NCBI GenBank assembly: GCA_001789645.1
Contig: MGAG01000003.1
Span: 79,034 to 125,724, forward strand
Direction: 5' to 3'
Source of the DNA: Candidatus Roizmanbacteria bacterium RIFCSPLOWO2_01_FULL_37_12
Lineage (GTDB): Bacteria; Patescibacteriota; Microgenomatia; UBA1406; GWC2-37-13
Length of the DNA: 46,691 nt
The first letter of the stretch is position 1, and each line of letters begins with the position of its first letter. The notes under the pieces were generated by a model, which had not been told where the DNA came from, made no database searches, and worked only from the letters and a program-made list of their open reading frames with translations. Positions 14,709 through 15,018 of the stretch are shown here, piece after piece. Both the position numbers and the translations under genes were made by a program.

Positions 14709-14800
14709 TATAATGTTGTTTTGATTTGCCCGGATGGCTCAGTGTTACCTGCCTGCCGGCAAGGCAAGGAGCAAGTACTTGGTCCCAGAAGTACGTAGCT
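14709..14800 (+). pseudogene. tRNA-Thr-like 5' remnant interrupted in the D loop
   Basis: TATAAT at 14709-14714 precedes GCCCGGATGGCTCAGTG (14728-14744), the acceptor and D-arm start of a tRNA. About 24 bases with a CTGCCTGCCGGCAAGGCA-type palindrome follow, then GAGCAAGTACTTGGT, the rest of the D stem and the anticodon. After the anticodon the sequence diverges. Its acceptor GCCCGGA would pair with TTCGGGC at 15011-15017, not with anything nearby. Confidence 0.65.
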
Positions 14801-14846
14801 AATTTGATAAAATTTGCTTTACGACTTCGGGATCCCGTAGTTCTAA

Positions 14847-14918
14847 GCCGTGATGGCTCAGTGGTAGAGCAAGTACTTGGTAAGTACTAGGTCGGGAGTT
14901 CGATTCTCCCTCACGGCT
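14847..14918 (+). tRNA. tRNA-Thr(GGT)
   Basis: Acceptor GCCGTGA / TCACGGC, D stem GCTC / GAGC, anticodon stem AGTAC / GTACT with loop TTGGTAA (anticodon GGT, U33 and A37 in place), T arm GGGAG-TTCGATT-CTCCC, discriminator T. CCA is not fully encoded. It lies between two broken copies of the same tRNA and is the only intact one. Confidence 0.93.
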
Positions 14919-14945
14919 CATAAAATTTGAAATAATCACGGCTAG

Positions 14946-15018
14946 ATACTACTTGGTAAGTACTAGGTCGGGAGTTCGACCTGTCCTGAACGAAGTTGAA
15001 GGATTCTCCCTTCGGGCT
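14946..15018 (+). pseudogene. tRNA-Thr-like 3' remnant with an insertion in the T loop
   Basis: ACTTGGTAAGTACTAGGTCG and GGGAGTTCGA are identical to the intact tRNA. Then comes a 24-base insertion (CCTGTCCTGAACGAAGTTGA, then AGGA), and TTCTCCC completes the T stem, followed by acceptor TTCGGGC. The 5' acceptor and D arm are lacking. The acceptor matches the remnant at 14728, so these may be two ends of one old gene split by a tandem copy. Confidence 0.65.

Follow-up and report, generated by a model that had tools for sequence, protein, structure and literature searches.

A tRNA-Thr gene nested in a split tRNA-Thr gene of a Roizmanbacteria genome, and a palindromic element that recurs in tRNA loops of Microgenomates

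Results

A tRNA-Thr gene within a split tRNA-Thr gene

We examined a stretch of 46,691 nucleotides (the window) from Candidatus Roizmanbacteria bacterium RIFCSPLOWO2_01_FULL_37_12 (contig MGAG01000003.1, positions 79,034 to 125,724), in which an intact tRNA-Thr(GGT) gene sits within an older tRNA-Thr(GGT) gene spanning positions 14728-15018. A two-armed palindromic element (14783-14953) interrupts the anticodon loop of the outer gene and contains the intact, inner gene (Table 1); the locus lies within a 155-kb contig. ARAGORN and Rfam find a single intact tRNA-Thr(GGT) here (RF00005, 70.9 bits), which is the inner gene; the outer tRNA is not recognised by ARAGORN. Once the inserts are removed, the outer halves read AGTAC-TTGG|TAA-GTACT, which is also a tRNA-Thr(GGT), and the insertion point falls between bases 35 and 36 (TTGG|TAA). 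The outer acceptor strands, GCCCGGA and TTCGGGC, pair with each other (with one G-U pair) and not with the intact gene. Moreover, 30 bases of the outer 3' half around the 3' junction are identical to the inner gene, for which gene conversion is a possible explanation.

The original prediction for this locus had described an intact tRNA-Thr(GGT) between two remnants bearing different inserts in the D and T loops, and had noted that the acceptor strands of the remnants match one another and not the intact gene. All of this is confirmed, with a D-loop insert of 21 bases and a T-loop insert of 24 bases that are two different palindromes, each present once in the window (0 expected in shuffles). 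We also considered whether these inserts are abundant dispersed repeats of this genome and rejected the idea, the D-loop insert being found only here in 388 kb and the T-loop insert family giving ~9 loose matches.

The split in the anticodon loop is made by 171 bp of DNA in which the tRNA is the sole gene; without such cargo the element measures ~95 bp, and its ends read TCCCAG...CTGGGA. Both arms follow one plan: TCCC/GGGA pairs and a bulged base precede ~5 variable pairs, after which come another bulged base and, as a rule, TCT/AGA; an asymmetric loop then leads to an apical stem that varies. As single-stranded DNA, arm 1 folds at -12.9 kcal/mol (z = -5.8). A covariance model of the element, built from 17 relatives and excluding the window sequence, scores this locus 52.8 bits on the + strand and 39.4 bits on the - strand, a match on both strands being expected because the element is mirror-symmetric. 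In addition, the inner 5' acceptor strand (14847-14853) doubles as a strand of the arm 2 stem in the window, as it does at loci L046 and L048, and can pair with either of two 3' copies, so that the tRNA fold and the arm 2 fold are mutually exclusive at these three loci.

Table 1. Features of the nested tRNA locus (window coordinates)
Feature	Position	Strand	Basis and remarks
Probable -10 (TATAAT) of the resident tRNA promoter	14709-14714	+	13 bases upstream of the outer tRNA; putative
Outer tRNA-Thr(GGT), 5' half	14728-14782	+	Acceptor GCCCGGA to anticodon-loop TTGG, position 35; matches native G054/G001 type
Outer D-loop 21-base palindromic insert CCTGCCTGCCGGCAAGGCAAG	14748-14768	+	Sequence; locus L044 of genome G002 has another palindrome at the same site
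Element arm 1	14783-14832	+	Imperfect palindrome TCCC, bulged A, GAAGT...ACTTC, GGGA; DNA fold, covariance model, covariation
Arm 1 loop box TGATAAAAT	14805-14813	+	Resembles an extended -10 promoter; putative function
Central palindrome CGGGATCCCG	14828-14837	.	Joins the two mirror-image arms
Element arm 2, 5' strand TCCCGTAGTTCTAA	14833-14846	+	
Inner intact tRNA-Thr(GGT)	14847-14918	+	ARAGORN, Rfam; no other intact one found in the genome
Second copy of the inner 3' acceptor strand, TCACGGC	14936-14942	+	Alternative fold: arm 2 stem through pairing with inner GCCGTGA
Element arm 2, 3' strand TAGATACTACT	14943-14953	+	Consensus terminal GGGA replaced here; relatives' consensus GATACTACTGGGA
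Outer tRNA-Thr(GGT), 3' half	14954-15018	+	Ends TTCGGGC (15011-15017) and T73
Outer T-loop 24-base palindromic insert CCTGTCCTGAACGAAGTTGAAGGA	14980-15003	+	Sequence; differs from the D-loop insert

Recurrence of the element in tRNA genes

Exactly two more copies are present in the same genome, as found by region and core searches and in agreement with the covariance model; they lie in tRNA-Thr(CGT) on contig C36 and in tRNA-Trp on contig C3, each with an intact tRNA of the same type inside. Searches of the family and order gave core-pattern matches in 10 of 83 genomes, and a class-wide core search gave matches in 16 of 373, a few of them by chance. A scan of named genomes placed the element in Candidatus Roizmanbacteria, Levybacteria, Gottesmanbacteria, other Microgenomates and one record labelled Parcubacteria group, and a phylum sample of 287 genomes, searched with stricter filters, added one further genome (G563). 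We have read ~40 elements from ~22 genomes, nearly all of them Microgenomates, and every one occupies a tRNA gene or a recognisable tRNA remnant.

The majority of these elements lie in the anticodon loop, at 35|36 in Thr (GGT, CGT and TGT) and Glu genes and at 34|35 in Trp and Cys genes. Two lie in D loops (Pro-CGG in G221 and Val-GAC in G280) and five in T loops, adjoining Gly, His, Leu (twice) and Val; at the T-loop copies the 5' part of the tRNA is mostly absent and an intact tRNA copy adjoins. At the junctions read, a pyrimidine nearly always follows the insertion point. When the outer halves are joined, 12 of 20 are recognised as tRNA by ARAGORN, implying that the element ends are exact and that no target duplication accompanies them.

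Two loci differ in detail. At L068 (Gottesmanbacteria, ~100-500), ~60 bases comprising a tRNA-Leu T arm and downstream DNA are present twice, with the element splitting the T loop of the second copy, an arrangement that suggests tandem duplication in connection with insertion. At L216 (G300, contig 22), a tRNA-Thr is nested in the anticodon loop of another tRNA-Thr, within a palindromic, GC-rich insert without the TCCC/GGGATCCC consensus, and a third Thr remnant lies upstream of the nested pair; tRNA nesting may thus extend beyond this element family.

Identity and possible expression of the nested tRNA

A complete tRNA lies inside 34 elements, always in the same orientation as the outer tRNA. 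It usually occupies the loop of arm 2 and sometimes that of arm 1 (Cys in G068, G272 and G002; Val in G280). In all ~27 cases with both outer halves readable, the amino-acid identity of the inner and outer tRNAs is equal (Thr, Cys, Trp, Pro or Val), as is the anticodon except in the Cys case of G002, where the outer anticodon is mutated. For the six elements that hold no tRNA, an intact tRNA gene lies immediately upstream or nearby. In the window's own genome (90.75% complete) we find 41 intact tRNAs with 41 different anticodons, and the sole intact Thr(GGT), Thr(CGT) and Trp(CCA) genes among them are the nested ones. A sole-copy tRNA that is simply broken has never been seen, since an intact tRNA of matching type lies within or near every element for which a judgement is possible.

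The nested gene might be expressed from either of two sites. The TATAAT upstream of the outer gene also precedes the native gene in the element-free genome G054, although a consensus promoter scan does not list it. The second candidate is a TGnTAAAAT-like box in the arm 1 loop, which is present in 18 of 27 elements with an inner tRNA in arm 2 and in 0 of 10 others; the box may act as an extended -10 for the inner tRNA.

Decay of the outer genes and a proposed mechanism

In the window, the D-loop palindrome, the T-loop palindrome and the altered 3' end of the element all damage the outer gene. D- or T-loop palindromes are also present in the outer genes of L044, L049, L064, L075, L076, L178, L182 and L187, and the outer genes of L047, L058, L077, L080 and L096 are truncated. 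An outer gene open to such loss is dispensable, which argues for its displacement by the inner gene. As regards the palindromes themselves, those in the outer loops are mutually unrelated, that of L044 lying at the same D-loop site as in the window (GTGGYA|GAGC).

Taken together, we think it probable that a mobile palindromic DNA element breaks an essential tRNA gene and supplies a nested replacement, after which the outer gene decays. A non-coding, two-armed element would insert into the loop of a tRNA gene without target duplication, bringing in the loop of one arm a complete tRNA that agrees with the resident one in identity and orientation. The resident tRNA would thereby be broken and the nested tRNA would take over, being expressed from the resident promoter or from the -10-like box in arm 1. 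The outer gene would then decay, at this locus through the D- and T-loop palindromes and the damaged 3' element end.

The original prediction had taken the two remnants to be the ends of one older gene that now holds the new copy. This is supported by the relatives, in which the same nested architecture is present and the remnants are not separate, unrelated tRNAs, while a check for other tRNA-Thr(GGT) genes left the nested gene as the only intact one found. The further claim that the repeats target tRNA loops stands in so far as ~40 elements lie in such loops, as do additional palindromes of outer tRNAs in many genomes; the D- and T-loop palindromes, however, did not place the new copy, which we attribute to the anticodon-loop element overlooked in that prediction.

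Several observations weigh against the mechanism that we propose. We have not identified a transposase, an integrase or a mobile intermediate for the element, and we have not found a pair of empty and filled sites with otherwise identical flanks. Y1 transposases occur commonly whether or not a genome bears the element, and at 10 RAYT loci, where long perfect palindromes were the only target of the search, no flanking element was seen. In addition, the 12 outer genes recognised upon joining still look like intact tRNAs in that form, and some may function; the outer gene of G003, which shows compensatory differences from native genes, may also be functional. Finally, the inner gene is nearly identical to the outer one in G221 (Pro, 97%) and G055 (GGT, 95%), a likeness as compatible with duplication on the spot as with cargo brought from elsewhere; the G221 case implies either that local copying also occurs or that the donor was close. 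As a separate observation, RAYT-like Y1 transposases of ~210-250 amino acids are common in the 36 Microgenomates genomes examined, and a single genome has up to 13 matches.

Origin of the inner tRNA

Comparison with relatives bears on whether the inner gene arrived with the element. In the element-free genomes G054 and G001, the native tRNA-Thr(GGT) at the syntenic site has the acceptor strands GCCCGGA/TCCGGGC, which is the type of the window's outer gene. In the element-free genome G005, the syntenic site has an inner-type GCCGTGA gene alone, 100% identical to the inner gene of the window. In G002 the outer gene is of the GCCGTGA type and the inner gene is of a third type, GCCGAGG; this type is also that of the inner gene in G272, which belongs to a different family from G002 and has a different outer gene. 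The two GCCGAGG genes are 90% identical and have in common an unusual linker, GCCGCGC(T)GTATTATGCCGAGG, whereas the outer gene of G272 is 64% identical to the inner gene of G002. In the element-free genomes of family f9, the native gene is either outer-like or inner-like. This pattern fits transfer of the element together with its cargo and successive replacement of the resident gene. One further observation concerns L104 in the element-free G001, where a loose 3' piece of a tRNA (GATTCCCACCGTCGGCTC) lies after the intact tRNA-Thr(GGT) and may be the scar of a lost element.

We have also considered that the nested tRNA is not cargo at all and is instead a local duplicate of the target, made by template switching or gene conversion at or after insertion. 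Inner and outer genes that are 92-97% identical in G003, G055 (GGT) and G221 (Pro) would be natural products of such copying, as would the intact tRNA copies that adjoin T-loop elements, and the inner gene of the window differs from the native GCCCGGA type in three acceptor pairs only. At many loci, however, inner and outer genes are merely 60-77% identical, and it is the inner type and the linker, not the outer gene, that G002 and G272 share across families. We regard local duplication as a rather unlikely origin of the nested genes.

DNA hairpins or an intron

The arms might in principle be maintained as DNA or as RNA. In 58 arms outside T loops, the variable helix is paired in 89.3% of cells; when the 3' strands are dealt to other arms, pairing is 66.8%, with 73.1% as the largest value in 1000 shuffles. 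The pairs at two helix positions alternate (TA 19, AT 17 and CG 16 at one; GC 26 and CG 18 at the other), and this covariation, together with pairing above that of the shuffles, shows that the structure is maintained. Arm 1 and the reverse complement of arm 2 can be aligned, and the bulged A coincides in 53 of 58 arms. Among mismatches read in the transcript sense, G-U (14) is not commoner than A-C (16), although a conserved RNA should favor G-U. Such a pattern in the aligned arms points to a structure that acts as DNA hairpins rather than as part of an RNA intron.

These data bear directly on the alternative that the element is an intron of a new type, in which the outer pre-tRNA is spliced, tRNA comes from the outer as well as the inner gene, and the inner tRNA is an intron-hosted gene. 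Such a reading would account for outer stems that are maintained although 5-40% diverged from the inner gene and for an inner tRNA that invariably has the sense orientation of the outer one, and undamaged outer genes are compatible with splicing. Nevertheless, we consider it improbable, not only because the arms are mirror images at the DNA level and show no excess of G-U. The outer genes are broken or truncated in the window and at L044, L047, L049, L058, L076-L080, L178 and L182, the 5' part of the tRNA is missing from most T-loop copies, and a sole-copy tRNA that has the element and no intact partner is not seen. The Rfam covariance model for group I introns was run on three loci without a match at E values of up to 5. 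An archaeal-type bulge-helix-bulge motif was judged absent by eye, the element ends pairing with each other while the exon letters vary, and EndA was not searched for. At the window's own locus, a spliced product of the outer gene is unlikely, given two further broken loops and an altered boundary at the 3' end of the element.

Discussion

Two further explanations for the nested architecture can be weighed against insertion of a tRNA-carrying palindromic element. The locus might be what is left of a prophage or plasmid that entered the anticodon loop, brought a complementing tRNA and later lost all but its ends, the same logic being known in actinophages (PMC10865867). The ~40 copies are equally compact, however, none has a gene besides the tRNA, and two pattern scans of IMG/VR, checked by covariance model, yielded no copy, so that this origin seems very improbable. 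A phage or virus origin was rejected on similar grounds, the IMG/VR core matches being chance protein-coding sequences and the covariance model finding no element in the fetched contigs. The remaining idea, that of two unconnected tRNA pseudogenes or of an assembly artefact, has next to no plausibility; its sole point is that ARAGORN misses the outer gene, whereas the halves complement exactly at the anticodon loop and acceptor stem and the architecture is present in ~22 independently assembled genomes, the copy in the window lying within its 155-kb contig.

Our literature search, from which preprints and most subscription journals were absent, turned up no account of tRNA nesting or of this element. 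We tentatively suggest that the element could represent an undescribed, minimal class of mobile element in bacteria of the Candidate Phyla Radiation (CPR), for which tRNA loops are the landing sites and a replacement tRNA is the sole cargo, and which, by replacing the essential tRNA gene that it invades, would drive horizontal turnover of tRNA genes. If this is true, a selfish element of ~170 bp would make itself harmless, or indispensable, through a spare copy of the essential gene that it breaks. Such an arrangement would explain how tRNA genes present once in a reduced genome can be replaced and why tRNA loops are insertion hotspots. The nested architecture also escapes annotation, ARAGORN naming the inner gene only, and a search of other lineages for split tRNAs that flank intact ones would be straightforward.

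Several known systems resemble parts of this arrangement. Like bacterial tRNA group I introns and the rRNA insertion sequences described in CPR bacteria (PMC11270868), the element sits in RNA genes, often in the anticodon loop. Unlike group I introns, it has no Rfam group I core, also uses D and T loops, and is often flanked by outer exons that have been destroyed. Rickettsia palindromic elements, which are known mostly from protein genes, are likewise palindromes inserted in genes, and to our knowledge neither these nor any similar small palindrome holds a replacement gene. Repetitive extragenic palindromic (REP) sequences and bacterial interspersed mosaic elements (BIMEs) are short, non-coding, imperfect palindromes with conserved bulged bases that form inverted hairpin pairs and are mobilised by RAYT (Y1) transposases. 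Our element has the same imperfect palindromes, conserved bulge and inverted pair, and Y1 transposases are present in most genomes that bear it. In contrast to REP sequences and BIMEs, it is present in three copies in its own genome, all of them in tRNA genes and carrying a tRNA, and has no systematic proximity to RAYT genes.

The closest functional analogue is the tRNA-dependent lysogeny of actinophages, in which integration breaks a host tRNA that is complemented by a phage tRNA of the same isotype (Guerrero-Bustamante and Hatfull 2024, PMC10865867). There the inserted DNA is an entire temperate phage, which has a tyrosine integrase and whose attP has a core in common with attB, and anticodon-loop sites are common (PMC10865867). 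In both systems an essential tRNA is broken and the same isotype is supplied. The element described here, however, consists of ~95 bp and one tRNA, without integrase, phage or other protein genes; it uses D, anticodon and T loops, and it holds its tRNA in the arm of a hairpin.
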